From assembly GCA_001972305.1 (NCBI GenBank), contig BDDD01002114.1, positions 112,472 through 176,471 of the forward strand: DNA of 64,000 nucleotides. Direction: 5' to 3'. The translations under genes were made by a program, and so were the position numbers. Origin of the DNA: Cephalotus follicularis. Taxonomy: Eukaryota; Streptophyta; Magnoliopsida; Oxalidales; Cephalotaceae. Below the pieces are notes generated by a model. The model saw only the letters and a list, made by a program, of their open reading frames with translations. It had not been told where the DNA came from and searched no databases. Shown piece by piece: positions 25,687 to 59,404 of this stretch (positions are counted from its first letter, which is position 1; each line of letters opens with the position of its first letter).

Positions 25687-26331
25687 TGTTGGCCTTTGCC
25701 ACCCCGATTAATTGCATTACACATGTTATTTTGATGATTAACAAACGTAGATTACTTGTATGCATAATTCTTTAAGTTATAAATGCATTTACTCACTTGA
25801 TTCTTTGTCCAAAGTTGTGCCAAGAATGCTTATGCAGATACAGGCCAATCCAGCCGACTGGAGAGCAATCCAGTCGACTGCCAAGGTTAGGAGTCGACTT
25901 CCAAAGTTATGTAGTCGACTGCATCTTCAACCAAAACCCAAAATCTACAGAAACAGCACACCAGTCGACTGACACAGGGGTCCAGTCGACTGCCAGGCAA
26001 ATCCAGTCGACTGTCACAGGGCATCAGTCGACTGCCATGGGTACAATTTCAGGCAGAAGCTTCTGTAACATTTTACACCCAATCCAGCCGACTGAAGTAG
26101 GGGACCAGTCGACTGCCAGGGGGTCCAGTCGACTGCCAGGGAATCCAGCCGACTGCCATCAATTGTGCAAAATCATAGTTTGCCGAACCACTATATATCC
26201 GTTTGCAATCTCTAAACCCTACACTCTTTTCATTTCCGCAAATTGTGTGTTTGTGTTTATTGAATTATTTTGTGGTATTATTGCTAGTAATTTTTTATAA
26301 GTCTATTCACCCCCCCTGTAGACTTCCTACA
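25687..26331 (+). repeat. Copia-4 3' LTR
   Basis: This 645-bp LTR starts TGTTGGCCTTTGCC and ends CTTCCTACA. Its middle holds the twelve-site palindrome array at 25851-26155, and a TATATATCCG motif lies near 26192, shortly downstream of the array. Confidence 0.9.
25851..26155. repeat. Phased palindrome array A: 12 CAGTCGACTG-type sites
   Basis: Ten-base sites start at 25851, 25871, 25891, 25912, 25962, 25983, 26004, 26025, 26085, 26106, 26126 and 26146. Seven read CAGTCGACTG, three read CAGCCGACTG, and two have a changed end base (GAGTCGACTT, TAGTCGACTG). The spacing is 20-21 bp within three groups of four, and 50 and 60 bp between groups. Sequence between sites is not conserved, so this is not an ordinary tandem repeat. 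Confidence 0.95.
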
Positions 26332-26646
26332 AGGTTGGCCTTACCATGTAAATAAAGCTTGCATGCGTAATTTTTATTTACTTATAAATTCCTAAGTGCA
26401 TCAAATAGCTAATTGAGTTGGGCTATTACGAAAAGTGTAACTGGGCTTTTGGGTAGTGAGTGTAGTGAGTTTTTTGCAGCTTTTTTCTATATAAAAAGTT
26501 TTATTTGAGTTAAAGTTATAATGGAGACCGTGGACATAGGCATTTGTGAGTTGACCGAACCACGTAAAAATTATTTTGATATTTATTTTTGTTGCTTTAA
26601 TTTTTGTTGTGTTTGCGTGTGGAATTGCTTTTCAATTTCTAGCAAG

Positions 26647-26657
26647 TGATATCAGAG
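26647..26657 (+). promoter_or_regulatory. Copia-3 primer-binding site
   Basis: TGATATCAGAG follows the 5' LTR end (CTAGCA) by two bases and matches the iMet site TGGTATCAGAG at 10 of 11 positions. Confidence 0.8.
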
Positions 26658-26725
26658 TCGAACGTTTAGGATTTTCGTACTGAAGATTCTTCTATTAAAT
26701 TTGTGATTTCACTGCTGAGAAAACT

Positions 26726-27482
26726 ATGATGGAAGGTATGCCTAAATTTAAGGTTCCTTTATTTGATGGAAAAAACATTTTACTTTGTGGCAATGTACCA
26801 TTCAAGATGTTTTGATACAACAAGGCATTGATTCAGCATTAGAAGACGAAAAGCTGAATAGAGTGACAGATAGGGACTAGTAGAGAATTCAGAAGAAAGC
26901 GGTCAGCACAATCAGGGTAGCTCTTGCTCTCGAAATCAAGTATAGTGTGTTGAAAGAGATGACACTGAAGGATTTATGGAGCAAACTTGAGAACTACTAT
27001 GTGTCGAAGTCGTTGACTAACAGATTGTGTCTGAATATGGATTTATATTCATTGAAGATGGATGAAGGTATAAGTCTGAATAATCATCTCAATGAATATA
27101 ATAAGCTAGTGTCTCAATTATTAAATATTTCTTAGGATGAGTTAAAAGAAGAAGAAAATACGTTGTTGTTGTTGTCTTCCTTACCCAGATCTTACAGACC
27201 ATTAGTTCAGACGTGTTAGCAAGCAAATCTACGTTGAAGTTGGGTTATGTGACTGCCTTGTTATGTGAGAATGAAAGACTAATGGGAAGTGTGAACTCAT
27301 CAGACAAGGGGAATGCACTAGCTGTAGAAACTTCTAATCGAGGAGGACTCAAAAGAGGGGAAATAGTGCCACAAGTTGAAGATCAAAATCAAATCCTTGA
27401 GATAATAGTGAGATTGAATACTGCTATTATGGAGAGAAGGTTCATATTCAATATCGTTGTAGCAAGTTCAAAGAGGATTTGA
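26726..27482 (+). pseudogene. Copia-3 gag (broken)
   Basis: The ATG at 26726 gives MMEGMPKFKVPLFDGKN, a typical copia gag start with the F-D-G-K-N block. A frameshift near 26785 leads to TLWQCTIQDVLIQQGID, then stops near 26880. The central part LKDLWSKLENYYVSKSLTNR and MDEGISLNNHLNEYNKLVSQL (about 26965-27120) is well preserved UBN2-type gag. A TAG follows at 27133-27135 before DELKEEENTLLLLSSLPRSY. No zinc knuckle with the full CCHC set is readable after it. Confidence 0.82.
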
Positions 27483-27529
27483 CGAGCTTAAAATAGTTCA
27501 AAGAGAATATCAATCTGAAGGAAAGGAAA

Positions 27530-28069
27530 AGTGATTCTTATGCTACGGCGACTGATTGTGATAGCGGTGGAGAGTTTATAATGGTTAAAAGTATGGATGA
27601 CTTTCTTACATGTGTTGATGAGAATGGATGGTGTTTGGATTCTGTTGCTTTCATGCATATTTGCAAAGATAAAGATTGCTTTATAACTTTGAATATTGAT
27701 GGGGATTTTGGCTGCATCACTGGAGATTGAAGGCCTAGGGAGTGTTCGTGTCAAGCTTCATACCGATGATGTGAAAACTCTTCGTCATGTGAGGTATGTA
27801 CCTAAGTGTAGTGCTAGCATTATTTCTTTAGGACATTTAGCATGTCGTGGGTACACATATGTAGGTCGAGGAGATTGGTGCAAGGTGTACAAGCAAAAGA
27901 AATTGATTTTGTGAGGTAAGAAGAATTGGAAGCACATGTATTTTCTAGATGACACTATAGTTGTTGGCAAGCCAAGAGATGAAAATGTTCTTTTTTCTCA
28001 TGTCAATGAGGAAACAAATATTAAGAAGGGTGTGAGGTTCTCGGATGTTGTTAATGTTAAGGGAGGATT
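27530..28069 (+). pseudogene. Copia-3 protease-like relic and polypurine end
   Basis: WCLDSVAFMHIC near 27630 stands where the aspartic protease active site should be; the D-S pair is kept but the following G or A is V. GLGSVRVKLHTDDVKTLRHV, with RYVPKCSASIISLG after it (27740-27835, another frame), is the usual downstream protease and pre-integrase stretch. Coding then breaks off and GGGAGGAT leads directly into the 3' LTR. Integrase, reverse transcriptase and RNase H are absent. Confidence 0.75.
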
Positions 28070-28447
28070 TGTTGGAAAAACACCTCAAATCCCACATCGG
28101 TTAAATATAAGGAGTTTGGGGTTGGCCTTACCTTATAAATAAGGCATGTATGTGCAATTTTTACTAACTCCTAAATTCCTAAGTGCATCAAATAGCTAAT
28201 TGAGTTAGGTTATTATAAAGGGTGTAACTGAGCTTTTTTATGTAGTGAGTGTGATGAGTTTTTTTTTTTTTTTTTTTGCAGTTTTTCTCTTTATAAAAGT
28301 TGTATTTGAGTTAAAATTTTAGTGGAGACTATGGACGTAGACATTTGTGAGCTGATTGAACCACGTAAAAATTATTGTGTTGTTTATTTTCGTTACTTTA
28401 ATATTTATTGTGTTTGTGTATGTGGAATTGTTTTTCAATTCCTAGCA
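28070..28447 (+). repeat. Copia-3 3' LTR
   Basis: This intact 378-bp LTR runs from TGTTGGAAAAACACC to CCTAGCA and includes a T run at 28260-28277 that the 5' copy lacks. Confidence 0.88.
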
Positions 28448-29060
28448 AAATAATGGGACCAAGTAATGTGTTTTACTCTCTATGAGTTATTCATGTGTAA
28501 TGACACATGTGTTGGGATGAAAAAATTGGTAAAAAAGTTGAGAAGTCTAGTGTTAGTCAAAATTCAATGGTGTGAGAAGTCTAGTGTTACTCAAAATTCA
28601 ACGGTTTGATTGATGAAATATGATTCGTAAGTCTGGTAATTAAAACGAAAAATATATAATTTGTATGAATATGCTTGTCAGAGTATACGAGTTATATACT
28701 TTTTACTTCAATTACCGGTCTTATAGATCATGTTTCATCAATCCAACCGTTGAATTAAATGTTTTATATGTATATATCAAGCATACCAAATTTTAAATTA
28801 ATTAAAATTCTCTAATTATTTCATATTTTCTTAAAAAATTCAACCGATTTATAATTTTCTCATGTAGTATAAAAAGAATTATTTATTCGATAAATGATCT
28901 AGAGATATTCAAATAGCTTAAAAATTAACATATACTTTATAGAAGTAAAATATCTGATCCAATGGTTGTATTAATGGAATACGATCGTGGGTTTGATAAT
29001 TAAAATAAAAAAAAATATAACTTGTATGCCTTGATAAGCATATTTACTTTTCTTTTTATA
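28448..29060. repeat. Right part of the inverted-repeat element split by copia-3
   Basis: The first 210 bp or so are the reverse complement of sequence left of copia-3. From about 28670 the sequence repeats the left part directly, and about 28960-29060 is again inverted (TTTGATAATTAAAATAAA, ATAACTTGTATGCC against the left GGCATAC-like arm). This gives an inverted-direct-inverted layout of one repeat unit. No coding is visible. Confidence 0.68.
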
Positions 29061-29330
29061 CTGTGGTAGATGACAAGTTTGTTAAGAGTTTTCAAATAAA
29101 TTTCAGTTTATTATTGAAGAGCAGTTTTATTCCTAATTAAAGCTAATGTGCTTTGTCGTTGGAGCTATTCGTTTATGTAGAAATTATAACTTGCTCTATT
29201 ATTTTGGGAGAGGGGTCCAAGTTTCTAAGTTGACAAGAAATTATAGTTCCCTCTTGTTCAAGTTGTCATCTGGTAGTTTGTCCTTTGAATTGCATGAAAT
29301 AACTAAACGAAGTGACTTCCATGTATATTT

Positions 29331-29418
29331 GTGGAGATCTATGACAAATTGACAATTGCATGCCCATAATTTTTGTGGAGATCTATGACAAATTGACAAT
29401 TGCATGCCCATAATTTTT
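29331..29418 (+). repeat. Exact tandem duplication of 44 bp
   Basis: GTGGAGATCTATGACAAATT and the following 24 bases occur twice in a row with a period of 44. It lies just outside the left end of copia-5. The rest of 29061-29432 is AT-rich without a recognised gene. Confidence 0.93.
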
Positions 29419-29432
29419 AATTGGCTTGTCAA

Positions 29433-29665
29433 TGTTTTTGTTAAGGTTTTAGTCTGTATTGAGAGGTAAGTGTGTATGGCTTAAAACATTACACCATTCG
29501 TATCAAGTTTGGAATACTCCGTAGTGTTGCCTCCAATTAGCACACTTATTTTTATACTAGGGTCTTACCTTATTATGGACTCTAGTCCAGATAGGCCCAA
29601 GTATCAGGCCTTCACTTATTGGTCTCGTATTAAAACACATTGGTTAGATACCCAAGTATCCAACA
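29433..29665 (-). repeat. Copia-5 3' LTR
   Basis: About 233 bp sharing GTCTGTATTGAGAGGTAAGT, TTTGGAATACTCCG and TCTAGTCCAGATA with 40807-41044. On the minus strand it starts TGTTGGATACTTGG after the tract GGAGGAGAT. Confidence 0.88.
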
Positions 29666-29955
29666 ATCTCCTCCTATGTTTTACATATAGCACAATCCAA
29701 TACAATGGACAGTGTGATGTCCAAACAAAATATGGATCACCCACATTCAAAATTCTCAAATAATTCAATCCAAAATAGAATTTATCTAAGATGCATTTTA
29801 TTATAAAATGGACTATTCAGATATCTTAGATCTGTTCTAAACTCAATCCAACCGTCTCAAATAAAGAGTTTTAGAAACAATCTAAAAACAAAATATGCAT
29901 AAAGTCTCAAGTATATGTGAACCAAACAGAAGTATCCAAAAACTGTAAAGGTAAC

Positions 29956-30960
29956 TCAAAATGAACCATAGGTCTCACAAATACATGAGCTAAGCAACAT
30001 AATCTCATAAATAAAATGAACTAAAATAATAAACTGGACAGCAGATGGAATGTCTCTACAGCAGCAAAGAACCACACCAAGATCTGTCATGGCAAATTCC
30101 TTCGCCATAGTGGTTTTCACGTCACTCACTAAAGAGAGATCGGAACCAAGAATCAACATGTCGTCTACATACAAATAGATAATCGTAACTTTATTTGACA
30201 CAGAACGATAGTAAAGACATTTATCCGAGTAACTGGTCTGAAAACCAAGACTTTTTACTACTTTGTCAAATTTTTTATGCCACAATTTAGGTGCTTGTTT
30301 AAGACCATACAAGGATTTGTTAAGTTTACATACTTGTTCTCTAAACCTTCCATGACAAACCCCTCAGGTTGGTTCATGTAGATTTCTTCAGTCAACTATC
30401 CATTAAGGAAAGCTGTCTTTACATCCATTTGATGCACCACATAGTGCTCAACAAATGCCAAAGTAAGAAGAATCCTTATAGTGGATAGATGACACACAGG
30501 TGAATAGACATCAAAAAAGTCGATCCCACTCTATTGTGTATAGCCTTTAGCTACTAAACGTGCTTTATACCGAGCTATTGATCCATGACTATTGAGTTTC
30601 TTCTTCAAAACCCACTTGCAGGCCACAGTTTTAGCCTCTTTTGGAAAATCAACTAGCTGCCATGTGTGATTTTGCAACAGAGAGCTCATTTAATCATCAA
30701 TGGCTTCTGCCCAAAACAAAGAGTCCCTAGATCTCATAGCTTCCTTGTAGGAAGATGGATCATCCTCCAGATTGAAAGTGACGAAGTTCTCACCAAAACT
30801 CTTGGGTACTCTATCTCTTGTAGATACTCTCACAGGTACTGATGCACGAATCAATGTGGAACTAGTTTCAGAAGGACCAATTTCAGATTCGCTAACCTCC
30901 ACTGTATAGCTAGGTATAGTCAAACCATGGTCTCTTAGGAACTTATCCTCAAAGAAAATA
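29956..30960 (-). pseudogene. Copia-5 reverse transcriptase, RNase H lost
   Basis: Reading the minus strand: the linker ends in MRSRDSLFWAEAIDD (near 30690), then WVLKKKLNSHGSIARYKARL and VAKGYTQ, MDVKTAFLNG, YGLKQAPKLWHKKFD, and YLYVDDMLILGSD with the catalytic aspartates near 30160. Stops occur after AIDD, YTQ and FLNG. The polymerase domain is nearly complete in order. After AMTDLG the sequence becomes unrelated, and the RNase H region (the MYAM-x-x-TRPD block to DPLTK) is gone before the 3' LTR. The 29666-29955 stretch holds no domain. Confidence 0.88.
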
Positions 30961-31216
30961 GCATCTCAAGATTCTATAATCGCATTGGTAGATAGATCCA
31001 AAAACCTGTTTGCAGCACTATCTTCTGCACAACCTAGGTACACAAAAGTGTTGGTTCGAGTTCCCACCTTAGGTCTCCTAGGGTCTTGTATTTGTACATC
31101 AGCAATACAGCCCCAAGTCTTAAGAGTGTCATATCTACAAGGATGTTAATGCCATAACACATAAGGAATGGAGTTTAACTTAAAGTGTGACAATCTATTC
31201 AGGATGTGATTAGCAG

Positions 31217-32200: not shown

Positions 32201-32289
32201 CATCACCATTGCGATAAAGTTGCGAGGCTCAGGCTTGCCCACTAACATGTGAGCTTCCTTTTGTTGTGTGTTAGCACTAGGCTTTTTAG

Positions 32290-32933: not shown

Positions 32934-32938
32934 AATAT

Positions 32939-34877
32939 TGTTGGGATATGGTGTATCATCCCCGGAGTCAGAATCGGATATAGGGTGCCAAGGGTGTAAT
33001 TTTAAAATTTTTAACACAACGGAAGCATAAACCCTTTGCACCATTATATAACATATCCAATTCTAACACACATCACACCAAGGAACACCCACAACAATTC
33101 ATAATCAAATTTACATCACTAATACATGCACTTGTGATGTTCAATCCTACAAAGAGGATTTGAGAACATACCAAGCATGATGGATCCTTCTCTTTGCCAC
33201 AAACTAGCTTGGGTAGATTTCCTTTCACCTCCAAGATGATTGCTTCTCCTTCCTCAAACTTTGGAAGTCACTAACTTTCTCTAAACTTATAGAGAACTCA
33301 CAAAGGGAGGTTTAAATTCCACCCTAGGTAGCTCCTTGCTTGGTGAATATAATCAAAGAAAGGATTTGAGAGAAAAGCTAAAGCTCCAAGTTAGCCTTTC
33401 ATGGAATCTCAAGAGAGAAATGAAGAACAACCAAGAACAACAACAACAACCTTTTCTTTCTCCTCCTTCTCCCTTTTATAACTCAAAAATTGGCTTCTTT
33501 AAGAAGCTTGGAAATGGCTTCTTTAAGAAGCTTCAACATGGCTTGTTCAAGAAGCTTCAAAATGGCTTGTTCAAGAAGCTTTAACACGGCAATCCCGTTT
33601 TTCTCTCTTCTCTTGGCTTTTATTGGCTTAATTTGATATTATAACTTAAGTCTAACTTAGTTAATGACATGCCACATGCCCTATATCATGAAAGCACTTA
33701 AAACCATGTGTTAACTTCTCCAAGAAGTAAACAATAATCACTTAAATGTGTGTAACATATTTTTAGTGATTCTTTTCATTTCCCTTCATTTATTAATTTG
33801 GTAAGATCAAATGAGGTAATAACATGTGTTATCATCCAATGGTAATACACCTCATAAAATCCACCAAACTGATATATAATTTTTATAAGTTTCACCAAGA
33901 CTTAAATATGTCCAACATATTTATAAAGATATCATCATCGGGTAGGGACCCCAACAGTCATCGGTTCGCGCGTACTATAATCCTTCGTCATACTTGGCCC
34001 TAACTAAGGTCTAGAGTAAGGAATTGTGTCAACTCTAGTTTTACCTCAGTTACTAAAATATCTGATCATTACTAGGACCTTTGGTAGACTCTCCGGAAAT
34101 CCAATTTTCAGTCCACCTTAACCTTGGCCAAGGATTTCATAAAGTCCAAAGTACAATTAGACTAGTTTAGAGCCTATCACCTTCGCTCAGGTATGACGAT
34201 CCCATGTTGCGCACTCGCTTATATTCGTATAGATTCGATCATGCCCAAAGACCATCCGTTTGCCAGCTCCTCGAAAGAACTGGGTAAGATGAAGATCAAA
34301 GTATGATAGCCTCCATACAACATAGAGCAGTCGCTCAGGTCAAAGGATCAGACGAGTTCCCTGAACTCGCTAAATGTCCAACACTTATACACAACCGCAA
34401 CAAGTGGAAATCACTATTGACACTTGAATAGCGACTATCCTAATAGTGTTTTCACGCGGGTCCTATTCAGAGTACACGCTCCAACGTGCACCCCACATTT
34501 TCCCTAGTGTCCAACTCAAATGGTAATTAGATTATCCATCCTCCCATTTTGGAAGCAGGAAACATGCGCGCAAGTCTATCCGGTTTACTAATGTCCACAA
34601 AGTGAACTTATGACTTGGAACTAATCTGACATAAGGAGTAAAGTAACCAATCCCATTGCCTCCATGCTTGGCATCCAACCTTATGTCTGGGCATCACAAG
34701 TGTAAGTAGATTTATTTTAATTTACTTCAATTATAAGATTAAACACAAGTGATTTTGCTAATATTAATATATTCAAAAATAGCACATGTCATATATATAG
34801 AAAAAGACTGTTCATACAGAAGAATAGGTCCGATACAAAAGTCCATCCAATGGCTTGTCGGGTTACCCTATCTAACA
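32939..34877 (-). repeat. Copia-6 3' LTR
   Basis: On the minus strand it starts TGTTAGATAGGGTAACC after the purine tract AAGTGGGAGAA (34878-34888) and ends CATATCCCAACA. It carries four 24-bp units at 33492-33587. Confidence 0.93.
33492..33587. repeat. Four 24-bp units in the copia-6 3' LTR
   Basis: Each unit follows the pattern GGCTTCTTTAAGAAGCTT plus six variable bases, or GGCTTGTTCAAGAAGCTT. The core AAGCTTCTT/AAGAAGCTT is nearly palindromic, so each unit could form a short hairpin. Confidence 0.93.
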
Positions 34878-36258: not shown

Positions 36259-37951
36259 TCTAGCAACCTAGATAAGGAAATAAAAAGAATGAGTCAACAT
36301 ATATTCTAAATTTTTAATATATGACTATCATAATACTTGGTCTTTAGTGTATATGATACCTCCCACTATTCTAATCGTATTCCATACCCCCATACGGAAG
36401 TCGAGAAGTCCTACTTCATAGTGGGGATTGGAATCCATTGCAATCATATTATGGCCTCAGCTAGGGCATGACAAACCATAATATATCCAATGGGTAGGCT
36501 GTCTTACCAATTTGCATCCAATGCAAGATCCAATCATCAAATTCGGCCTCTCGATTCAATATGGCCTTAGCTAGGGCATAACAAATTATTAGAATCAAGA
36601 TAAATCAAACACCCATATTCTTCATTGGAATGCACTAGTTTTAAAACCCACACGTAGGAATGTCCAAGTGCTAAAAAATAGCCACCCTTTGCGGTGTCCT
36701 ACACCGACGCTGACATAGCTTCTATAGATTACCAGCCTCAGCTAGGGCATGACAAACCAATAATCCATATAGGCCATTCAACGAAGATTATGGAAGGCCA
36801 CGGGGAACCACTCCACGTGTCCCTACGTCCAGATTTATTAATTTAAATGAGGGAATTTTAAGGTCTCACATTTTAATTACCAAGCCTTTAATTAATTCAT
36901 TGGTTTCATTACCCAATTTAAATTAATTACGGCTTTGCATGCATGACGTGTATTTGGACTATCCATCTTATGTACCTTGAATTTATTTCTAAAATAAATC
37001 AATGGAATGGCAAAAGACCACACTATTGTGCATAAGATAATTAAAGCATATCTAATACTACTTTAAAACAATACACAAATGCCTTTTATAATAATCAATT
37101 TCAAAATTTAATATCAGAAGTTGTTTATGGGCTTAACTCCCACTAAATCAAGTGATGATCATTTATCCTTAAAGTGACATAGCTCAAAATTCAAAATTTT
37201 AAGATTCGTGTAAATTCAGTCTTAAGCATCGACGCATAAGTCTAAAGAGTCAGCGATTAACACGCAAGCGTCGACGGTTTTAACAAACCGTTGGGGCTTA
37301 GAGCAACATACCTGACTTTAAACAAAGCTTCAAAAACTCTGGTTCAAAGCGTTGGTGGTTTGTCCAAAACTGTCAGCGCTTTGTACAAGCGACTACGCTT
37401 TAACGAAAGCGTCAAAGGTTAAGCGCCTTGCGTCGACAGTTCTAACAAAACCATCGGCGCTTTACCTATGAAAATGGCCTAACCGTCGGCGCTTTAACCA
37501 AAAGCGTCGACGGTTTGCCCTGCTGCAGAAATGTCACCATGACAAAATCTGCATAAATTCCCACTTTTGGACTTAGGAATCCTTAACACTTGCACTATGA
37601 AAACATATGGGATCCTATAATTGCACCTTGCAGGTTCCAAACATGTCCAAAATAAGATGGCCTATGCAATTCACATATTCATTCAAACAATTTAAACAAA
37701 CTCCGAATAGCATTCCTTTTTTTGGGAACTTATCATAAAACAATCCTCTACATGTTCAAAACAACATCCAATGCCGATTCAAACAGGAAAGCAATACAAA
37801 CAGTTTTAAATTTTATCCAATTTCATTCAAAACATCAAAACTTACACTTAGGCACTAAAGGAATGAGTTTAACCACAAAATTTACCTTCTAATTAAACTT
37901 CTAATCAATCATCATCCTAGGCATTATAATTCAGTTATGATTGATGTGGTA
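36259..37951 (-). other. Copia-6 leader with repeats
   Basis: About 1.7 kb between primer site and gag. It holds three copies of a motif of about 33 bp, GGCCTCAGCTAGGGCATGAC plus ACAAACCA-like sequence, near 36451, 36561 and 36731, and the phased palindrome array at 37225-37512. No coding is visible. Confidence 0.7.
37225..37512. repeat. Phased palindrome array B: 12 GTCGAC-type sites
   Basis: Site centres (the T of TCGA or its degenerate equivalent) lie at 37229, 37250, 37271, 37291, 37352, 37373, 37392, 37412, 37433, 37454, 37486 and 37507. The arms are AAGCG/CGCTT or AACCG/CGGTT. Most steps are 19-21 bp, with single gaps of 61 and 32. It lies in the leader close to the primer site, not in the LTR. 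Confidence 0.88.
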
Positions 37952-37965: not shown

Positions 37966-39920
37966 TGTTGGGATATGGTGTATCATCCCCGGAGTCAGAA
38001 TTGGACATAGGGTGCCAATGGTGTCATTTTAAAATTTTTAACACAGCGGAAGCATAAACCCTTTACACCATTATATAACATATCCAATTCTAACACACAT
38101 CACACCAAGAAACACCCACAACAATTCATAATCAAATTTACATCACTAATACATGCACTTGTGATGTTCAATCCTACAAAGAGGCTTTGAGAACATAACA
38201 AGTATGATGGCTCATTCTCTTTGCCGCAAACTAGCTTGGGTAGATTTCCTTTTACCTCCAAGATGATTGCTTCTCCTTCTTCAAGCTTTGGCAGTCACTA
38301 ACTTTCTCTAAACTTATAGATAACTCACAAAGGGAGGTTTAAATTCCACCCTAGGTAGCTCCTTGCTTGGTGAATGTAATAAAAGAAGGGATTTGAGAGA
38401 AAAGCTAAAGCTCCAAGCTTAGCCTTTCATGGAATCTCAAGAGAGAAATGAAGAACAACCAAGAACAACAACAACAACCTTTTCTTTCTCCTCCTTCTCC
38501 CTTTTATAACTCAAAAATTGGCTTCTTTAAGAAGTTTGGAAATGGCTTCTTTAAGAAGCTTCAACATGGCTTGTTCAAGAAGCTTGGAATGGCTTGTTCA
38601 AGAAGCTTCAACATGGCTTGTTCAAGAAGCTTTAACATGGCAATCCCGTTTTTCTCTCTTCTCTTGGCTTTTATTGGCTTAATTTGATATTATAACTTAA
38701 GTCTAACTTAGTTAATGACATGCCACATGCCCTATATCATGAAAGCACTTAAAACCATGTGTTAACTTCTCAAAGAAGTAAACAATAATCACTTAAATGT
38801 GTCCAACATATTTTTAGTGATTCTTTTCATTTCCCTTCATTTATTAATTTGGTAAGATCAAATGAGGTAATAACATGTGTTATCATCCAATGGTAACACA
38901 CCTCATAAAATCCACCAAACTGATATATGATTTTTATAAGTTTCACTAAATATGTCCAAAATATTTATAAAGATATCATCATCGGGTAGGGACCTCAACA
39001 GTCATCGGTTCACGCATACTATAATCCTTCGTCATACTTGGCCCCGACTAAGGTCTAGAGTAAGTAATTGTGTCAACTCTAGTTTTACCTCAGTTACTAA
39101 AATATCTGATCATTACTAGGACCTTTGGTAGACTCTCCAGAAATCCAATTTCCAGTCCACCTTAACCTTGGCCAAGGATTTCATAAGTCCAAAGTACAAT
39201 CAGACTAGTTTAGAGCCTATCACATTCGCTCAGGTGTGATGATCCCATGTTGCGCACTCGCTTATATTCGTATAGATTCGATCATGCCCAAAGGCCATCC
39301 GTTTGCCAGCTCCTTGAAAGAACTGGGTAAGATGGAGATCAAAGTATGATAGTCTTCATACAACATAGAGCAATCGCTCAGGTCAAAGGATCAGACGAGT
39401 TCCCTGAACTTGCTAAATGCCCAACACTTATACACAACCGCAACAAGTGGAAATCACTATTGACACTTGAATAACGACTATCCTAATAGTGTTTCCACGC
39501 GGGTCCTGTTCAGTGTACACGCTCCAACGTGCACCTCGCGTTTTCCTTAGTGTCCAACTCAGATGGTAATGAGATTATCCATCCTCCCATTTTGGAAGCA
39601 GGAAACATGCGCGCAAGTCTATACGGTTCACTAATACCCACAAAGTGAATCTATGACTTGGAACTAATCTAACATAAGGAGTAAGGTAACCAATCTCATT
39701 GCCTCCATGCTTGGCATCCAACCTTATGTCCAGGCATCACAAGTGTAAGTAGATTTATTTTAATTTACTTCAATTATAAGATTAAACACAAGATATTTTG
39801 CCAATATTAATATATTCAAAAATAGCACATGTCATATATATAGAAAAAGACTGTTCATACACAAGAATAAGTCCGATACAAAAGCCCATACAACGGCTTG
39901 TCGGGTCACCCTATCTAACA
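37966..39920 (-). repeat. Copia-6 5' LTR
   Basis: This 1955-bp LTR is near-identical to 32939-34877. It carries five rather than four of the 24-bp units (38520-38638). Confidence 0.93.
38520..38638. repeat. Five 24-bp units in the copia-6 5' LTR
   Basis: Units start at 38520, 38544, 38568 (23 bp), 38591 and 38615. Compared with the 3' LTR one unit has been gained or lost since insertion. Confidence 0.93.
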
Positions 39921-45726: not shown

Positions 45727-46063
45727 GCGTCAACGTGTACCATATAGGTGTTAACATCCAGAACAATCACTTAAGCGTCGCCGTTTAAATCTAGGCGTCG
45801 ACGCTTATGTCCTTTAAGCATCGACACTTAAACCCTTTGTGTCAGCACTCTAGACCATAAGTTCTACGCGTCGACATCTATCTCCTTGGCGTCGACGCTT
45901 TGAGGTAGGAACCTTAACCGTCAACGTTTCAAGCATCGTTCACTCACGTGTAGCAGTACAAAGCGTCGACACTTCACCCAAAAGTGTCGAATGTCCAATG
46001 GACCAAGTGTCCAGTTCTCGAATAATAGTCCATAGCGTCGACGCTTTTCCTTTAAGCGTCGAC
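45727..46063. repeat. Phased palindrome array C: 14 GCGTCGACGC-type sites
   Basis: Centres lie at 45730, 45751, 45778, 45798, 45821, 45842, 45871, 45892, 45921, 45936, 45966, 45987, 46038 and 46059. They form seven pairs, six of them 20-21 bp apart, with the pairs separated by 23-51 bp. The best copies read AAGCGTCGACGCTT. Degenerate members change the central TCGA to TCAA, TCAG or TCGC. Confidence 0.88.
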
Positions 46064-47484
46064 AGTTAAAGAAGACCAGAAAATCGTCTTCTTCAACCCA
46101 TCTCAAACCAAGGGAAAATCATCCCAAAACACGCATGTAATTCAATCCTCAATCACTCTAAAACACGATATGCATGGCAGGTTAACTACTCATAGCAACC
46201 CTAACACCAATTACACAATTCACAAACCATGCATTTCATCAAATGAGCACTCAGTATTTTTGAACTAAAATATGCATGTATAAATCCCCTAAAAATACCC
46301 CTACCTGTTAAAGCAGTAGTAACAGTACAGTCGAGCAGCAAATTGCCGAACATTTCCAAATGTTTCCAACTGTCGAACCAAATTACCAGCTCGCTCACTG
46401 CACATACAACACATGCCATTATGATCAACGCACATAAATCAACATTGTCATCATCGGAGTTTCGGTCGGATTCCGGCCAACTCACCGAGCTTGTGAAACA
46501 CCCATATACAGGTTCCAAATTGAACGGTCTACTCAAAACCTCTCAAGACTCGCCGTGACTCGGTGCCAAACGCCGTGTCACGGCTGGAAGTGAGTTCGAC
46601 TCACTGAGTCAACTTGTCAGACTTCAACAGCTCCAGCCACCACCCAAAAACGCCACACAACCACCAGTTCTACACACCACTGTTGAAGACTCGTCGAGAC
46701 TCGGTGCCAAACGCGCGGTCACAGGCGGCAGGGATTCGAGCTCGCTGGGTCGACTCAGTCGACCGATTCTCGTCGATTCCGGCCGAACAACGCCTCAAGG
46801 TTGTCAAAACGGGCAGAGCTGGCCTCCTAGACAAAGACCCGCTCCATCCGCGACGCTAACGGTGCTGGAATCCCGTGGTCAATGCGCACAGTGACGGGGA
46901 AGAAGAGAAGGAAAAGAAGAGAAAAGAAAAAGAGAAAGGAAGAGCTTATCGATGGGTTGAGGGGTCTGGACCGCTCGCCGTTTCTTTCTTGTCCGGTGGC
47001 TAGCTCCGGCGTCTTCCCTGGCGCACCATCGACTCTCTTTCTCTCTCCCACGTCTCCCGCTCGTCTCTCTCTCGCCTATCTTTCATTTCTTCATTTGCAG
47101 TCTCTTTCTTTCTTTTCTTTTAGTCACTTGCTCCCCTATTCTTTATTGGTATTTACCAACAAAACATTAAGGACTGGGTCCCGTTTATTCTGCAAATTAC
47201 GATATTAATTTATCCAGCCGCCATTAAAATAACCGTAATAATAATTCTAACACTGGGCCTTACAAGTGCGCATTAAAAATAGGCTTTATTTACCGTTTTG
47301 GGCAACATAATTCCGGCTTCAATGCGAAATGCCTTGAACATTTTCTTATCATTCCTCTTTCGAAATTCGAAATTATAAAAGGGAAAACATCATCAAAGTC
47401 GAGAATTTCACTATTTTCATAATTCCATAATAAGATTACATTAAAATTGTAATATTACATTTTGTGAAAAACCCGGGCGTTACA

Positions 47485-49659: not shown

Positions 49660-50990
49660 TGTGACGACCCGAATTCCCTGCTGTACTGTTCATGCATACA
49701 TCGTACCGTATTGTGCCGTTTTAGACCGTACTGAACTGTATTGAATTGAGGTATTCTTATACCTATTGATATTGTATTGATCATATGCATGTATAGTCGG
49801 GATTCTGGGCTGAGTTTCAGAGAGTTGGTCAAATTGACTATATAAGTCAATTTCTCACTCTTATCTCTTCATTCTTCACTCTTCTCCCTCTCTCTATCTC
49901 TCTATCTCTATCTCTCTCTCTCTATCTCTCTCTAGCTGGAGCCTCCATCTTCATCCATTGCAGCCGAAATTGCATCTCCATCGACAAAGGACAGTGATTA
50001 CAAGTGGTGACTTACCGATTGGACAAGAAAGTAGCGGATTACTGGGCGATTTCAGCCGATTGATCGATCGTTAGCTCAACTTTTGAAGCTTCAGTGATAG
50101 GTAGGACTTCTTTATTGAATTACCTATTGTTTTATTGATTTATTGACTGAATTGCATGATTGATTGAGTGATTGAATTGAGGTTTTTAGGGTTTGTAGCT
50201 AATCCTTGACCTAATTGTTAATTAAAGGATTGAAATTGAATTTGGAAGGTTGTAACTAGTCTTACTAACCTCAAATGATTGATTGTAAACTTTGGTTTTC
50301 AAAGAATGGCTTTAAATTCGATTTTAACTCGAGATTGGCCATTTTTCTGCATAAAAATTGACTTTGCCCGGAAAAGACATCGACCCTTAGCCCAAAGACG
50401 TCGATGTCTTTCTCATCTGAGTGCTTTATCCTTGATTCTGCAGCAAAGACATCGACGTCTTTCAAAGGCGTTGACTTGTACATGCACATTTGCCATGTCA
50501 TGCATTGATATTGTACACCGCACATTGATATTGTATTGATTGTCACTGATATTGCACATTGTACATGCATACATGCTGCATGGGGTTTCTGCTTAGCCAG
50601 TGTAGCTAACCCCATCCTTCGGGGTGGGGCTGTGTTGTACCTTTGTGTGCGGCATAGGTAGGGCAACAGGTAGCAGCGGACAGAAGGATTGAAGACTCGT
50701 TTGATCGCATGACTGCTTGGGTACCGCAGGACTGGTTATGAGATTGTAGTGAAGTTTGATATGTACTGTATTGAAATACTGTATTGAAGTATTGATGTTT
50801 TGTAAAAGACTAGTATTGTAAAAGATTTGCATTGTACGGTATGGATGGATTGGTATTGTATCTTCCGCAAGTGTTATGTATTGAAAAGTTTTAAGTTTTT
50901 CGCATTTTATATTGCTAGTCCCGACCATTGTTTTGTGTATTGGATTGAGAGTAATGCCACGTGTCCGCCATACGGGCGCGGGGTGTTACA
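49660..50990 (+). mobile_element. Solo LTR 1 of the chromovirus family
   Basis: It starts TGTGACGACCCGAATTCCC, ends GGGCGCGGGGTGTTACA, and is flanked by the perfect target duplication TTCAT (49655-49659 and 50991-50995). It matches the LTR of the chromovirus at 60631 (opposite strand) and solo LTR 2 at 54564. Relative to solo LTR 2 it lacks nearly 1 kb of the middle. It has no internal coding, so it is an LTR-LTR recombination product. Confidence 0.93.
50377..50475. repeat. Short phased palindrome array in solo LTR 1
   Basis: Four sites of the type AGACATCGACGTCTTT, centres at 50380, 50401, 50452 and 50471, give steps of 21, 51 and 19 bp. They match the first four sites of array D in solo LTR 2 (steps 20, 51, 19). 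Confidence 0.9.
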
Positions 50991-51039
50991 TTCATACAAG
51001 TCATATCATAACATACAATAGTATTCAGTAGCTCAACGT

Positions 51040-51826: not shown

Positions 51827-51925
51827 CCAGTTGAGTACAACTAGATTGGTAGGCCTCATTAGTTGACTGGTGAAGCACCAGTCGACAGTTGAGGCCATTC
51901 CAATAGACTATTAATCGAGTAGACT
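51827..51925. repeat. Decayed palindrome cluster in the gypsy F LTR
   Basis: Sites like AGTTGACTGG and CAGTCGACAG have centres at 51842, 51863, 51882 and 51904 (steps 21, 19, 22), with weaker ones at 51831 and 51920. The arms are those of array A (CAG/CTG) but most cores have mutated. Confidence 0.55.
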
Positions 51926-52815: not shown

Positions 52816-53956
52816 GACAATGACAAGAAGATTGCTTGACATTAGGAGGTTATTTTTAATGAACCATGGCCATTTTTTATACCTTCAATTATTATATAAT
52901 ATAGTTAACGTCTATGTATGTATTTTTATTCTTGAATATGTGTTGTATTCAGAGGCTCAATTTGATTTAAGCCCAATTTTTGGTTGAGGGGTATATTAGT
53001 ACTTTTATGTATGAGTTTTTGCCTATATATATTTACTTTTTATGTATGAGTTTTTGCCTATATATATTTACTTGTATACAAGGCTTTAGGTTCAGCCGTA
53101 AACATATTTTCATAGTGGATTTCTGATCTCTCTCGTGGTTTTTTTTTCCTTGTTTGGGTTTTTCCACGTAAAATCTTGTGTTCTTTACTGCTTTATTGTT
53201 GATCGATATCTATCTATGTGTGTAGATGTGAGGTTATTCTAATAATTCATGACAATTATTTTAAAATTTTAGTTGTTATGTTAAGGATCATTTTTATGCA
53301 TTATTGTTTATTTTAAGGTTTAGAAATAGTTATCTAACTTTGCATATAGTGGAAAATTTATTGATTTGTTTACAATATATATGTAGTATCTTTTCTTAAC
53401 TCCTTGTTGTTATGATTAGGTTAAGGTATGGATAACACCTTTAGTGACTCGTCCACAAACATAAATGATGAGAAGTTCGATATCTGTTAAGTATTAATAG
53501 TCAATGAGATTTGTGATTCCTAGAAATGTTCTTAGATAAAATTCCTATACGGATATGATCAAAACTTAAGGGGAACCAATAAATATATGGAGGAGATGCG
53601 AGCTAATTTGACTTAAGTTTGTTGAAATGTTATGTATGCACAAAACAACATTTTTAAATTTTTGTGAAGTCTTAAGAAAAAATGGAGGCCTAGAAACACA
53701 ATGGCGAAAGAATAAGTAACAATGTTCTTGATTTTTGTTGAAAGAAATTAGGATATCAAATGCCCATATGTGATAGTTTCCTCAATCGACTTGTCAGGCG
53801 TGTTATGAGATAACTTAATTTTCTTTTTGCATCAACCTTTTTCATCATTTGATATATAAGTTTATGATGTATTGACTAATGACACAATTTTGACTTTGCA
53901 ATAAAAATGTGTTGGAAGCAATCTATAAGACCTATGTAAGTGCATGGGCACATGCG
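52816..53956. other. Unassigned DNA with a 35-bp tandem duplication
   Basis: TTTATGTATGAGTTTTTGCC and the following bases occur twice in a row at 53004-53038 and 53039-53073. The sequence near 53130-53180 (CTTGTTTGGGTTTTTCCACG) looks like a copia LTR end, and weak gag-like words follow at 53430-53700, but stops are too frequent to call an element. Confidence 0.5.
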
Positions 53957-54563
53957 TGTAGCACCCTGGGTCCAAGGGGCGAGCCCGATGCGCTACCTTC
54001 TGTTCTATACATTCACTTATCCAATTGTTGGATGCTAGATAATATTATCCGTATGCGGGAACATTTAAAAACTTTGTCACATACCCTACCAATCCATTCA
54101 ATTACTTAGTAAATGACATAAATATACAATTACATCCTTACAATATATGTCTCTACTATCTCAATCTCATAACCATACATGTCCATACAATAATAAATTA
54201 CGAAACAAATACATCCCTCATTGCATCACTATCCCAAGTTTTAGCTATCCAATCATCGGCCGCTACTCTTGGCTCCTCTACTTGATAATCATATACAATT
54301 ACCCCATGCCGAATGATGGGTCAGCCAAACAGCCTCGTAGAAATAACCCCATGTGTTATGAAACAGTTATAACATTTATATGCATGTTATGTCATCTACA
54401 TGAATATCAATTGTGGTCGACCATTTATATACAACTATCTCATACTGGCATACATAAATAGCGTACATAAATAAAACCTAACCATACAATCCTATCCATA
54501 CATCTATCAAACAATCCTTACCATGTGTGTGAACACACCCATATAAACATATAGTACTAATGA

Positions 54564-56872
54564 TGTGACAAACCGAATTTCCTTTCTGTACTGTTCATGC
54601 ATCTACTGTACTGTATTGAACTGTATTGGACGGTATTGAACAGAGGTATTCCTATACCTATTGTTGTTGTATCGATTATATGCATGTATAGTCAGGTTTT
54701 TGGGTTGAGTTTCAGAGAATTGACCGAATTGACAATTTAAGTCAATTTCCTTTGTCATTTTCCTTATACTCTCACCATTTCTCATTCTTCTCCCACTCTC
54801 TCTACCCTTCCCTCTCTCCCTCTAGCTAGACATCCTCATTCTCCCCCTCGCAGCTCCGGATTGGCTTCTCCAACAAGCAAGATAGCGATTACAAGTCTTT
54901 TCCTTGCTATTTGAACAACATAGCAGCTGATTATTGGGGGTTTTTAGCCGATTGATCGATTGTTTCTCAACTATTGAAGCTTCGGTTATAGGTAGGACTT
55001 CTCTACTTGTATTACCTATTGCTTAACAGCATGATTGATTGAATTGCATGATTGATTGAATGATTGTATTGTATAGAATTGAAAAACTTGGGTTTTTATT
55101 GATATCCTCGATCTAACTGATCTAGAAGGATTAAATTGAAATTAGAAGGTTGTAACAAGTTTTACTAATCTCAAATGATTGATTTTAACCCTTAGTTTTC
55201 AAAGAATGGGTTTAAATTGGATTTTGACTTGCGATTGGCCACTTTTTTCTGCACAAAAATCGACCCTGCCCAGCAAAGACATCGACCCCAGCCCATGGAC
55301 GTCGATGTATTTCGCTTTAGAATGCTGTGTCCTTGATTCCGCAGCAAAGACATCGATGTCTTTCAAAGACATCGACGTCTTTGCCTTGAGATGTCTTTTC
55401 CCCAGGAAAGACATCGATGCTGAACATGGATGCACATTCCCAGGATAGTTTTATTGAATCGCATCGACGTCTTTGTTCAAAGATATCGACGTCCTTCGGC
55501 TAGATATCTATACAAATAGAGAAAGACATCGATGTCTTTCAAAGACGTCGATGTCCTTCCACCGTTTTAAGGGAATACCCTGATACGCATCGATGTCTTT
55601 GGCCAAGGACATCAACGCCTATCGGGCTGAATGGAACTTTTAACTATTTTAAAGCTAGTTTTCAACTCCTTTTCACATTGTCGCTTGACCGGAGCCTCAC
55701 TTGAGGTATTCAAGAGTTTGAAACATATTTTTCTATGGTTTTCAAAGATTGATTTGTTAGAATGATGGTTAAGCCATAGGCGACGACCCAGTGACTTTCA
55801 TGGATCGAATAGATGTATGATTGATTGATTGTTTGTATAAATCTTATAGAGCGGCTGTATGATTCGCATTGGCATGTTAGGGTGTTAACTTTGTTCACCT
55901 ATCTTGTCGACCATTTCATTTATTGCATTGCTTCATTTATTGTATTGTCGTGCTGACGAGCACTATTGATTGATTGACGATTGATGATCCCTTGAGGGCC
56001 GTAGCTCCCTAACGGTAAGAGTTGCTCCGTCGGTTGTAGCTCATCGAGATTGTATTGACCCAGCCATAGGCTGGAAGATCTATGAGTTCCAGACCTGATC
56101 AGTCTGAGAACCGTAGATAGATCTCCCACCCTTTTTAAAGGACTACATTCCGTGGGATTGATCATTGTTACAGATTTACATCGTACTGACCCGGTCGCAT
56201 GCTCTATAGGATATTGTTGATTGATTGGGTGTTTATACACCATCATTAAGTGTCTGTTATTGATTGATTGTTATAGATCCTATCCGTATGTTCTGTTGTG
56301 GGCCAGGACATATAAATAGTCAGATCGCCAACTGTATTCATGCATTGCCATATCATGCATTGATATTGTACACCGCACATTGATATCTGCATAGACTGTC
56401 ACCGATATTGCACATTGCACATTCATACATGCTGCATGGGGTTTCTGCTTAGCCAGTGTGGCTAACCCCATCCTTCGGGGTGGGACTGTGTTGTACTTCT
56501 TGTGTGCGACATAGGTAGGGCAACAGGTAGTAGCGGACCGAAGGCTTGAAGATTCCATCAACCGAGGGGATAGTCTGGATCTGACAGAGTTCACTGTAAT
56601 TTTGCTATGAGGAGTTTGATAAGTGTATTGTAAAAGATTGGTATTGTAGAGCACTGCATTGTATTGTATTGTATCGAATGACTGATATGGTATTGTAACA
56701 GAACTTGTATTGTATTGTATCGTATGGATGGATAGATTATTGTGTTGTATCTTCCGCACATTGTAAAGTTTTAAGTTGTTCCGCATTTCTATATTGCTAG
56801 TTCCGACCATTGTATTGTGTATTGGATTGAGAGTAATGCCACATGTCCGCCTTGCGGGCGCGGGGTGTTACA
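54564..56872 (+). mobile_element. Solo LTR 2 of the chromovirus family
   Basis: It starts TGTGACAAACCGAATTTCC, ends GGGCGCGGGGTGTTACA, and is flanked by the perfect target duplication AATGA (54559-54563 and 56873-56877). At 2309 bp it is the longest copy in the window and the only one holding the full palindrome array D. No coding is present. Confidence 0.93.
55278..55616. repeat. Phased palindrome array D: 11 ACATCGATGT/GACGTC-type sites
   Basis: Centres at 55282, 55302, 55353, 55372, 55414, 55464, 55486, 55529, 55548, 55590 and 55612. Steps are 20, 51, 19, 42, 50, 22, 43, 19, 42 and 22, so pairs about 20 bp apart alternate with gaps of about 42 or 50. The best copies read AAAGACATCGACGTCTTT. 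Confidence 0.9.
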
Positions 56873-56904
56873 AATGACCACCCTTTTGAATCTTTGATCT
56901 AAAC

Positions 56905-57120
56905 TCCTAGGAGGTAGTGCCTCCAACATCTAGGTTTAGATATCTAGCCACCTATAGGTAGTCCCATAGGAGCTCGACTAGATTTCCTAGTTGCTGTTGG
57001 GTAGTTCCCATATGAGCTCAACAAGGTCTAGTTACCGGTGGGTAGTGCCCACAGGAGCTCAACTAGTATTAGTTGCCTTTTGGATAGTGCCCGCAGGAGC
57101 TCAACTAATATACGTGTCCA
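56905..57120 (+). repeat. Minisatellite GGTAGTGCCCACAGGAGCTC, five units
   Basis: Five imperfect units of about 40 bp follow the pattern GGGTAGTGCCCACAGGAGCT, then CAACTAGT. GGAGCTC and GAGCTC are kept while the flanks vary. It is part of the F-like LTR right of solo LTR 2. Confidence 0.85.
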
Positions 57121-57133
57121 TTGAGGTCACTCT

Positions 57134-57547
57134 TGTGACATCCTGTACCCATAGGGGGTCCGTGATGTCACCCAAATCCATTCAATCACTTATTTTGGGT
57201 ACTAGCTAGTCTATTCCGTATAGCGGAAGACCGTAAAATTTAAAACTTTACTAACATCGATGTATTGCCATTCAAAACTCTTAATCATTCAACCATTAAT
57301 ATAAAACCTGTCATAACTTTAAACATTGTTACAAAAAATTACCATGCATATCGTCTTTTACAATCCATACATGAAACCTTACAATATTTCCCTTGATGTC
57401 ACCCAAGTCTTTATCATAAACATAAACACTCAAAGGAAAAACTCTTACATCCTTGAATCCATGATCTATCCATCCAAGCTATCACTAATCCTCATGCCCA
57501 TGATCACTGCCAATAGCTCCGGATTTATCTGTTCTTGAACATATATA
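57134..57547 (-). repeat. Second gypsy F-like LTR end
   Basis: TGTGACATCCTGTACCC-TAGGGGGTC, GATGTCACCCAAATCCATTCA and TACATCCTTGAATCCATG match the 48178 and 48836 LTR ends. Homology stops near 57547. Confidence 0.7.
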
Positions 57548-57803
57548 GCTGTCAATGGCAAGGGCACGACGAGGGCACTTCAATCCCCTCGCCATTGAGC
57601 AGTTTTTTTTATTTAAAAAGGCATGGTGAGGGTACCCTCGCCATGCCTTCGCCATCTTAAAAATACACGACGAGGGTAGTGATCGCTCTTGCCATGTCCT
57701 CGCCGTGCCCTATACCTAAATCGACTCGGCACTTTCTTTTTTCTTCTCACTCTTTTCGCTATTCTCTATTCCTCATTCTCACTCTTTTCTCTTCCCCACT
57801 GCT

Positions 57804-57804
<1 letters not shown>

Positions 57805-57852
<48 letters not shown>
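57805..57852. repeat. (CT)n microsatellite
   Basis: 24 uninterrupted CT units. Confidence 0.97.
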
Positions 57853-57857
<5 letters not shown>

Positions 57858-58096
57858 TACTCTCCTCCCTGCCTCTCTCTCTCTTTGCTTGCTCTTTCTC
57901 CTCCCTGCCGCTCTCTCTGTCATACCAGATTGCATCCAAGCACAATCGCACCCGATCGATCGTAAGCTCTCACACTCCAAGCTCCGGATCCAACCTCCAT
58001 TCTTCGATTCTAGGTGTTGATTTCTAGATCTAACCTCCATTTTTTTGTTTTATATATTGCTTTTGTATTTGTATTTGTATAGATATATATATATTT

Positions 58097-58097
<1 letters not shown>

Positions 58098-58129
<32 letters not shown>
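58098..58129. repeat. (CA)n microsatellite
   Basis: 16 CA units preceded by TATATATATA. Confidence 0.97.
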
Positions 58130-58132
<3 letters not shown>

Positions 58133-58299
58133 TGTTTAGCATAAAAATGTGTTGTTTTTAATGATTTATTTGTGATATTTTTATGCTTGGAATAGACTGC
58201 TTTGGTTGTGTTATGTTGATTTTCAGGTACAAGAGTAAAAAGACCAAAGTGCATGAAGAATGGTCCAAATTGGTGAAAAATCTGCAGAAAACAGAGCAA

Positions 58300-58600
58300 A
58301 GCGTCAATGCCTAGAATTTAAGCGTAGACGCTTACATACAAAGCGCCAACATTTAAGGTTAAGTATCAACGCCCTAGATCAAAAGTTTAAAAAATTGAAT
58401 TGCACACTTAAAGTATCGACGCCTTTACACAAAGAGTCAGCGCTTTACCAAAACCGTCGACGCTTTGATCGATTGCGTCGACGCTTAACACTGAAGTCTG
58501 CCCAAACAACGCAACATTCAAGTCGACGCTTAGCGCTTCAACATACCAAAGCGTCAACGCAAAGCACCAGACCATCAATGCTTAAATCGTAAGCATCGAC
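58300..58600. repeat. Phased palindrome array E: 12 GCGTCGACGC-type sites
   Basis: Centres at 58304, 58325, 58346, 58366, 58416, 58437, 58457, 58478, 58523, 58554, 58575 and 58596. Steps are 21, 21, 20, 50, 21, 20, 21, 45, 31, 21 and 21. Groups of four at about 21 bp separated by about 50 bp reproduce the layout of array A in an unrelated copia LTR. Confidence 0.9.
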
Positions 58601-58999
58601 ACTTAAGATGTCTGACAGCAAATTTGGAAAATTTATACTTTTGCCAGTTTTGTATCTAGGTTATTTTATTTCCATTTTTAGCAATTTTGAAAGTATAAAT
58701 ACACTACAAGGTCGGCCATAAACAGAGTGTAGCCACCCTCTTGCTCTCTTTTCTTCTTGAATTCAGTTTTTAGTTTATTTACAATGTTTTCTAGCTAAAT
58801 TCTTAATGTTTTTAAGGCAAGAACAAAGCCTAGATTGTATTGCTTCAATTCCATCAATAAAATCCTTGAAGTTTTGATTTGTTCTTCAATTTTTTGCCTT
58901 CACACACACTTTGTCTGTTTGATTAAAATCCACAAATATCTTGTCGGTGAATAAGAACGTTGTTGAATAAATGGTGTTTAACGCAATAAATGGAGTCTA

Positions 59000-59152
59000 C
59001 TCATACGGTTTGTCATGCCGAACACACTCCGTATAAACCTAGCATGTTTACTCATACGATTTGCCGCTGTTGACGTACTCCGTATAGACCTAGCATGAAT
59101 ACTCATATGATTTGTCATCATAGTCGCACTCCGTATCGACCTAGCTGCTATT
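59000..59152 (+). repeat. 51-bp minisatellite, three exact-length units
   Basis: Units start at 59000, 59051 and 59102. CTCATACG-TTTG and ACTCCGTAT-GACCTAGC are conserved, while about 14 bases in the middle vary. CATACGG and CCGTAT are inverted within each unit. Confidence 0.9.
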
Positions 59153-59309
59153 GGTTATCAAGGTTTGATCGTTCAAGTAAGTGAATTGTTCAATATAATA
59201 TATGGTAAGTTTCTATACCCTAAAACCAAATTTAATTTGCATATTTCATTCCATTTTATTTATTGCGTTGATATTTAATTGTTTGCCTGCTTTAATTTCT
59301 GTTTATTGT

Positions 59310-59404
59310 CGCATCAATGCCCTTAACCATCGACGCTACCCTGTAAGCGTCGATGCTTTCCTGCTTTAAATTAATTCTCGTCGACGCCTTGACAAAGCGT
59401 CGAC
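59310..59404. repeat. Second, smaller palindrome cluster in the Athila-like LTR
   Basis: Five sites of the GCATCGACGC type have centres at 59314, 59330, 59350, 59381 and 59400, about 700 bp downstream of array E in the same LTR. Confidence 0.8.

Follow-up and report, generated by a model that had tools for sequence, protein, structure and literature searches.

The Sirevirus lineage of Ty1/copia retrotransposons carries repeated-motif (RM) boxes, which the sections of the 2010 description that we draw on present as high-copy palindromes with element-specific arms, placed before the TATA box in the upper half of the long terminal repeat (LTR) and also upstream of env (PMC2829016). The same sections call RM boxes Sirevirus-specific, on a comparison with 30 classic copia elements, and give them a CGG-CCG core, although two of the 13 RMs listed in Table 3 of that paper are TCGA-centred, namely Tnd-1 ACAATCGATTGT and Vitis CGGTCGACCG. 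A 2016 Genome Research study, as reported in part in PMC10760457, described clusters of LTR palindromes that are predicted to be strongly structured and are enriched in small RNAs. Here we analyse a 64,000-nucleotide stretch of the Cephalotus follicularis genome (hereafter the window; assembly GCA_001972305.1, contig BDDD01002114.1, positions 112,472 to 176,471) that contains rows of TCGA-centred palindromes. These arrays are real and are a genome-wide feature, and they extend beyond a Sirevirus to a second copia element, a Ty3/gypsy LTR and an LTR that we take to be Athila-like. A first-pass annotation of the window had regarded the layout as undescribed, which does not hold: palindromic RM boxes in Sirevirus LTRs have been known since 2010, TCGA-centred ones included (PMC2829016, in the same sections).

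Palindrome arrays in the window and across the genome

The window contains 34 exact TCGA palindromes of at least 8 bp, many of them clustered at places named in the first-pass annotation, and mismatch-tolerant family motifs resolve six clusters of 4-12 sites each (Table 1). Five of the six array regions listed in that annotation are confirmed; the locus it called 'gypsy F' could not be identified. Adjacent sites within the arrays are separated by 19-23 bp in 27 of 46 gaps. Enrichment was measured for exact TCGA cores with 3-bp arms and at most one arm mismatch, the null being 20 dinucleotide shuffles of 1-kb blocks. By this measure the window holds 58 palindromic sites (27.0 expected), 10 pairs of sites 19-23 bp apart (0.05 expected) and 39 pairs at other distances of 8-130 bp (1.45 expected), and the repeated centre spacing that had been noticed by eye is upheld. 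When 15 other palindromic cores were scored for pairs at 19-23 bp, TATA and ATAT gave 11 each, which we take for A/T simple repeats, and the remaining cores gave 0-2.

Table 1. Palindrome arrays and associated element features in the window. Site centres are given where an array was resolved with the motif search.
Feature	Position	Strand	Sites (centres)	Basis or remark
copia-4 env-like/linker open reading frame (ORF) piece	24339..24926	+		PF20167, E 3.5e-5, below curated cut-off
Three Sirevirus polypurine tract (PPT) octamers AGGGGGAG (25390, 25429, 25677) and junction inverted repeat	25390..25696	+		definitions of PMC2829016
CAGTCGACTG-type palindromes, copia-4 LTR	25851..26155	+	12: 9 TCGA, 3 CCGA (25855-26151)	motif search
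AGCGTCGACGCT-type palindromes, copia-6 leader, between primer-binding site (PBS; 37961, -) and gag-like ORF (36267, -)	37225..37514	-	8 (37230-37509)	
GCGTCGACGC-type palindromes, 'LTR G', lineage unplaced	45774..46066	.	8 (45779-46061)	flank family in common with L031
Second, shorter solo LTR of the gypsy family at 54564..56872, target-site duplication TTCAT	49660..50990	+		decayed array
Ty3/gypsy solo LTR, TG...CA ends, target-site duplication AATGA	54564..56872	+	11, GACATCGATGTC type (55283-55614)	contains array 55278-55619
AGCGTCGACGCT-type palindromes, Athila-like LTR	58300..58603	+	9 (58305-58598)	TATAAATA ~95 bp downstream by eye
Second array, near 3' end of Athila-like LTR	59326..59407	+	4 (59331-59402)	
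Athila-like gag downstream of the 58-kb LTR	59837..60703	+		PF03732, E 1.3e-15

The arms of the palindromes fall into two main classes, CAG-TCGA-CTG, found in Sireviruses, and RCR-TCGA-YGY, which has two sub-forms and is common to copia and gypsy elements. The proposal that arms differ by family is thus too simple.

The same arrangement is found outside the window. Twenty unselected 10-kb stretches (200 kb in all), picked regardless of content, contained 34 TCGA pairs at 19-23 bp compared with 0-5 for 13 other cores (TATA and ATAT unscored); a second sample of eight stretches contained 12 TCGA pairs, six TATA pairs and 0-3 for other cores; and all 31 loci together gave 48 for TCGA, 36 each for TATA and ATAT, and 0-7 for the others. 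Patterns were also counted throughout the 1.577-Gb assembly, in which the window lies on contig C2114, against the reversed pattern, a control that is a rough yardstick because its core differs (AGCT). CAGTCGACTGN{6,15}CAGTCGACTG occurs 38,281 times versus 137 for its control, and TCGAYGN{8,15}CRTCGA, representing the second arm class, 203,085 times versus 1,696. For steps of 24-31 bp, the RCR pattern TCGAYGN{16,23}CRTCGA gave 34,792 matches versus 3,542 and the CAG pattern TCGACTGN{14,21}CAGTCGA 11,603 versus 34. A genome-wide excess of the roughly two-turn step, on which the first-pass annotation had staked its proposal, is evident in two arm classes.

Element lineages that carry the arrays

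On its sequence hallmarks copia-4 is a Sirevirus, and its array is by the same token of a known kind, the Sirevirus RM boxes. PPT, attachment site and inverted repeat are all present: the octamer at 25677 (AGGGGGAGATTG) reads AGGGGGAG-AT-TG and lies 10 bp before the start of the 3' LTR at 25687, and at the PPT/LTR junction the left arm of the inverted repeat aligns with the reverse complement of the right arm. RM boxes have at least eight palindromic copies per element, and copia-4 has 12 in its LTR; their CGG-CCG core is absent from copia-4, which has a TCGA core instead, as in the Tnd-1 exception. The array starts ~165 bp inside the LTR and ends upstream of a TATA-like box, CTATATATC, found ~58 bp downstream of the last exact TCGA site, and Tandem Repeats Finder reports 20-21-bp tandem arrays here. 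The relatives L001 (7460) and L006 (8427) have additional CAG rows immediately 5' of the PF20167 ORF; in the window copy of copia-4 near 24 kb the motif search found no cluster of at least four sites. A further locus, L003 (485-9738), has a gypsy gag (PF03732) between two Sirevirus-type LTRs, each following AGGGGGAGATTG, with a PF20167 ORF outside, in what may be a nested or a tandem layout. L003 was rejected as an unambiguous gypsy case: its LTRs group with those of the Sirevirus-like L002 and L019 and bear the Sirevirus 12-mer.

Copia-6 is a copia element of another kind. Its junction reads CAAGTGGGAGAATGTTAG in the window and CAAGTGGGAAATTGTTAG in its relative L008, in place of the Sirevirus AGGGGGAG followed by the AT/TG site. 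The copia-6 gag-like ORF has no Pfam match; its DNA matches at 83% an L008 region with gag PF14223, and L008 has copia gag and pol, a PBS at 4801 and rows in both LTR and leader. The copia-6 LTRs also contain 24-bp tandem repeats (33487-33581 and 38515-38641; consensus AAAATGGCTTCTTCAAGAAGCTTC), with one perfect heat-shock-element layout, TTCnnGAAnnTTC, per LTR (33546 and 38597) amid near copies. An ONSEN-like heat response of the copia-6 LTRs is possible.

The solo LTR at 54564-56872 belongs to Ty3/gypsy. The L014 LTR, 78% identical to it over 1,018 bp, comes after a PPT and a pol of gypsy type (RVT_1, PF00078) rather than the Ty1/copia pol of a Sirevirus. Its shorter relative at 49660-50990 retains four clustered exact TCGA sites, two of which match the motif, and an inverted piece of the same family lies at 60631-61704 beside gypsy pol pieces (62064-63779), the array-bearing part apparently absent. 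The 58-kb LTR and the gag behind it we take to be Athila-like, the partner LTR not having been seen, and the PBS-like TTGGCGCCGTTGCC at ~59608, after the LTR, is presumably of Athila type. Ranked by E-value, the nearest named relative of this gag is a protein of C. follicularis, at 87% across 35% of the query; with the gag alone tested (PF03732), no Ty1/copia pol was seen for this LTR. All matches of the scanned element ORFs were to gag, pol or PF20167.

Once sites are masked, 40 arrays separate into 15 flank families (one A/T-type array, in L030, dropped). A more sensitive comparison of 20 masked regions with E up to 0.05 found nothing that joins Sirevirus, copia-6, gypsy LTR and Athila-like LTR, under a site mask that is broad and lowers power. 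Four matches of 16-53 bp involve L009, L015, L029 and LTR G, whose lineage is different or unassigned; one of the four extends to the copia-6 leader (16 bp, E 0.03) and another to the Athila-like LTR (25 bp, E 0.03). Without the mask, matches between lineages are short and occur in both orientations, as expected from shared sites. The claim that unrelated lineages carry the arrays is sustained for these four.

Elsewhere in the window, a 206-bp unit occurs in two tandem copies at 12242-12655 (99% identity), each with one GTTTCGAAAC palindrome. A tRNA scan of the window returned none.

Spacing, duplication and conservation of the sites

We collected 285 gaps from 48 arrays, and 161 of these gaps are 18-23 bp; L001, L002 and L003 entered this set, like the exact-site and class-wise gap tests, with one LTR each. 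Genome places were also listed for the patterns above, a list drawn from the first contigs only, in which abundant families dominate; among the matches listed, all 57 CAG-class pairs (16-25 bp searched) and 97 of 100 RCR-class pairs (16-23 bp searched) have a step of 19-22 bp. The two-turn unit is therefore solid. For phase we used 169 gaps from 28 arrays picked to limit family copies, with a few families represented twice. The best period within 9-12 bp is 10.45 bp, and none of 20,000 jittered sets did as well. Confined to the 74 gaps outside 18-23 bp, the best period is 10.35 bp (R 0.34, P 0.0014, versus R 0.22 at 21 bp), and exact sites outside the window, with the A/T-type L030 array left out, give P 0.016 in the same test. 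In the 24-31 bp range, again among the matches listed, 41 of 50 RCR-class pairs are at 29-31 bp and only 4 of 50 Sirevirus-class pairs at 31 bp.

Spacers within an array are more alike than shuffled ones (mean similarity 0.48 versus 0.37 for the CAG class, 0.445 versus 0.336 for the others), and the arrays therefore grew partly by old tandem duplication. The first-pass annotation, which held the spacers to be unconserved and duplication to be no explanation, was only partly right, given this similarity and the 20-21-bp tandem arrays at copia-4. Exchange between elements is also indicated in two Sirevirus-like loci, L001 (4376-5300) and L002 (2703-3854), whose gags are 90-95% identical and which share, towards gag, a 228-bp block of 85% identity. 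Their array-bearing parts do not align and belong to different arm classes, a contrast that is likely to reflect exchange of U3 (unique 3') regions.

The sites outlast their surroundings. Eleven alignments of related copies give identities of 95.1% for cores, 91.1% for arms and 82.8% for the remainder, with the core above the remainder in all 11 and the arms in nine. Palindromic TCGA sites survive intact in 96 of 116 cases and isolated ones in 60 of 80. ACGT, CCGG and GCGC, which are CpG palindromes too, survive at a rate of 66% (n = 101), all other NCGN words at 51% (n = 304) and CG-free tetramers at 52% (n = 13,921). Some sequences recur among these alignments, each comparison was counted in both directions, and motif anchors may be favoured by alignment. 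The retention of the cores indicates selection on TCGA sites, in agreement with the earlier proposal.

Discussion

Rows of 4-16 sites with a commonest step of 19-22 bp occur in the LTRs or leaders of at least four lineages. Our preferred reading, to which we give an even chance, is that a dimeric DNA-binding protein of the host, or a family of such proteins, binds these rows and activates LTR transcription. The protein reading the TCGA palindromes is predicted to be dimeric because the sites have two-fold symmetry, and a host factor is more likely than an element-encoded one because the palindromes are common to unrelated element classes. Dimers bound at neighbouring sites might act cooperatively along a single helical face, and their binding would activate transcription, probably in the manner of an enhancer. 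The lineages would have reached the same site separately, aided by local duplication of ~21 bp and by swapping of whole U3 modules. More tentatively, and with somewhat less than even confidence, we suggest that a single regulator or small family reading RTCGAY is a shared switch of the retrotransposon community, for which Sirevirus, another copia, gypsy and Athila each evolved two-turn arrays (>200,000 paired sites) while U3 modules were traded.

Several observations weigh against a common activator. Genome-wide matches were counted at any position, LTR or not, and the evidence comes from one genome only. Arm variation between the classes is not obviously tolerable for one protein, the copia-6 rows sit in a transcribed leader, and duplication contributed to building the arrays, as the similarity of their spacers shows. 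Only 9 of 41 arrays have a TATA-like word within 200 bp, a figure for which the chance level was not computed, and this weakens the idea of a TATA box beside every array. The spacing, too, departs from a uniform rule. In the 24-31 bp range, among the matches listed, 40 of 50 Sirevirus-class pairs are at 27-28 bp (2.6-2.7 turns) and 14 of 50 RCR-class pairs at 29 bp; exact sites reveal no phase in the CAG-class gaps that fall outside 18-23 bp (P 0.22); tolerant sites give best periods of 11.3 bp for the CAG class and 9.9 bp for the other; a 6-45 bp scan of the 285 gaps peaks near 27 bp, not 10.4; and all P-values are rough because array copies are related. Strict helical phasing is weakened by these steps, class periods and peak. 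Of the two-helical-turn spacing proposed for the arrays, the step of about two turns stands, being strongly over-represented genome-wide, but a strict same-face rule fails for the Sirevirus class, and support for a general same-face or helix-multiple rule is weak and only partial.

The arrays could instead recruit silencing, a host factor bringing RNA polymerase IV (Pol IV) and DNA methylation to the LTRs much as the Arabidopsis REM factors do. Such a factor would account for one site across unrelated lineages, the array cores contain CpG, and recruitment of Pol IV to tandem motifs by sequence-specific REM factors is published in the part of PMC12270911 we draw on. The REM motif given there, however, consists of two or three tandem copies of TTTTGCTTAT and is A/T-rich and non-palindromic, and elements would be expected to shed silencing sites, yet TCGA cores are better kept than their surroundings. 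We consider this explanation unlikely.

A neutral origin, in which short-unit tandem duplication and U3 exchange between families generate arrays without function, agrees with the likeness of spacers within arrays, the tandem repeats in copia-4 and the apparent U3 swap between L001 and L002. It does not readily explain why the four lineages lack similarity after masking (with the reduced power of the broad mask), why TCGA cores, despite their CpG, are better kept than other DNA, or why TCGA alone among palindromic cores not made of A/T only is so arranged in the samples. We give it a small chance.

Alternatively, the palindromes may pair in the transcript, yielding hairpin-derived small RNAs or serving packaging or translation. 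The part of PMC10760457 consulted connects palindromes of maize Sireviruses with small RNAs, the copia-6 rows are located in a leader, and the predicted folds of three arrays each beat 100 of 100 shuffles (z -6.0, -11.3 and -4.3). Good folding is, however, expected of any row of palindromes. In 21 oriented regions read along the sense strand, arm pairs comprise 261 Watson-Crick, 31 G.U, 27 A.C and 11 other pairs; individual families show a strong bias in one direction or the other (A.C 13 to 1, G.U 13 to 1), and the near-equal totals of G.U and A.C reveal no overall preference of RNA type. The ~10.4-bp preference, where seen, is a B-DNA number, and a role as hairpins seems to us rather improbable.

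Least probable of all, and in our view very unlikely, is that two-turn CpG palindromes set the rotational position of nucleosomes by fixing the helical face, or correspond to the ~10-bp periodicity of de novo methylation in plants: some of the gap data give a best period close to 10.4 bp, but a TCGA core with specific arms is stricter than nucleosomes need, and steps of 27-28 bp do not fit.

What is known of how LTR elements of different lineages become tied to host regulation comes mostly from individual families. A palindromic site and step common to copia and gypsy elements would indicate a single host factor governing much of the retrotransposon load of a genome, and would make the role of the Sirevirus RM boxes testable.

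Arrays of short motifs are known from other plant mobile elements. The targets of VANC proteins in Arabidopsis VANDAL elements, as presented in the part of PMC5735166 we use, likewise consist of short arrayed motifs that grow as tandem repeats, vary between related elements and are bound by protein; unlike the sites described here, the VANC21 motif YAGTATTAY is non-palindromic, lies in one orientation and is read by an element-encoded protein. Arabidopsis short interrupted repeat cassettes (SIRC) resemble our arrays in having short repeats with diverse spacers, in some cases containing palindromes, and in being frequent in mobile elements, but no common core or fixed spacing is evident in the part of PMC10342631 consulted. 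The palindromes of the 2016 Genome Research study have the consensus CACCGGACNNNGTCCGGTG and belong to Copia elements, with the motif also present in Helitrons (PMC10760457, in part).

RM boxes are the closest counterpart. As with them, the palindromes stand in the LTR upstream of a TATA-like box and, in L001 and L006, upstream of an env-like ORF. No spacing analysis appears in the sections of PMC2829016 that we draw on. Among the matches listed in our literature searches, judged by titles and abstract openings, none described such arrays outside Sireviruses, and searches on the motif strings listed no title on plant LTRs. What is new, as far as these literature listings show, is an RM-box-like layout with a shared TCGA core in non-Sirevirus copia and gypsy-type LTRs. 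Unlike the RM boxes, the sites described here have a TCGA core and also occur in a non-Sirevirus copia element, a Ty3/gypsy LTR and an Athila-like LTR, so that a feature once deemed Sirevirus-specific extends to other lineages.

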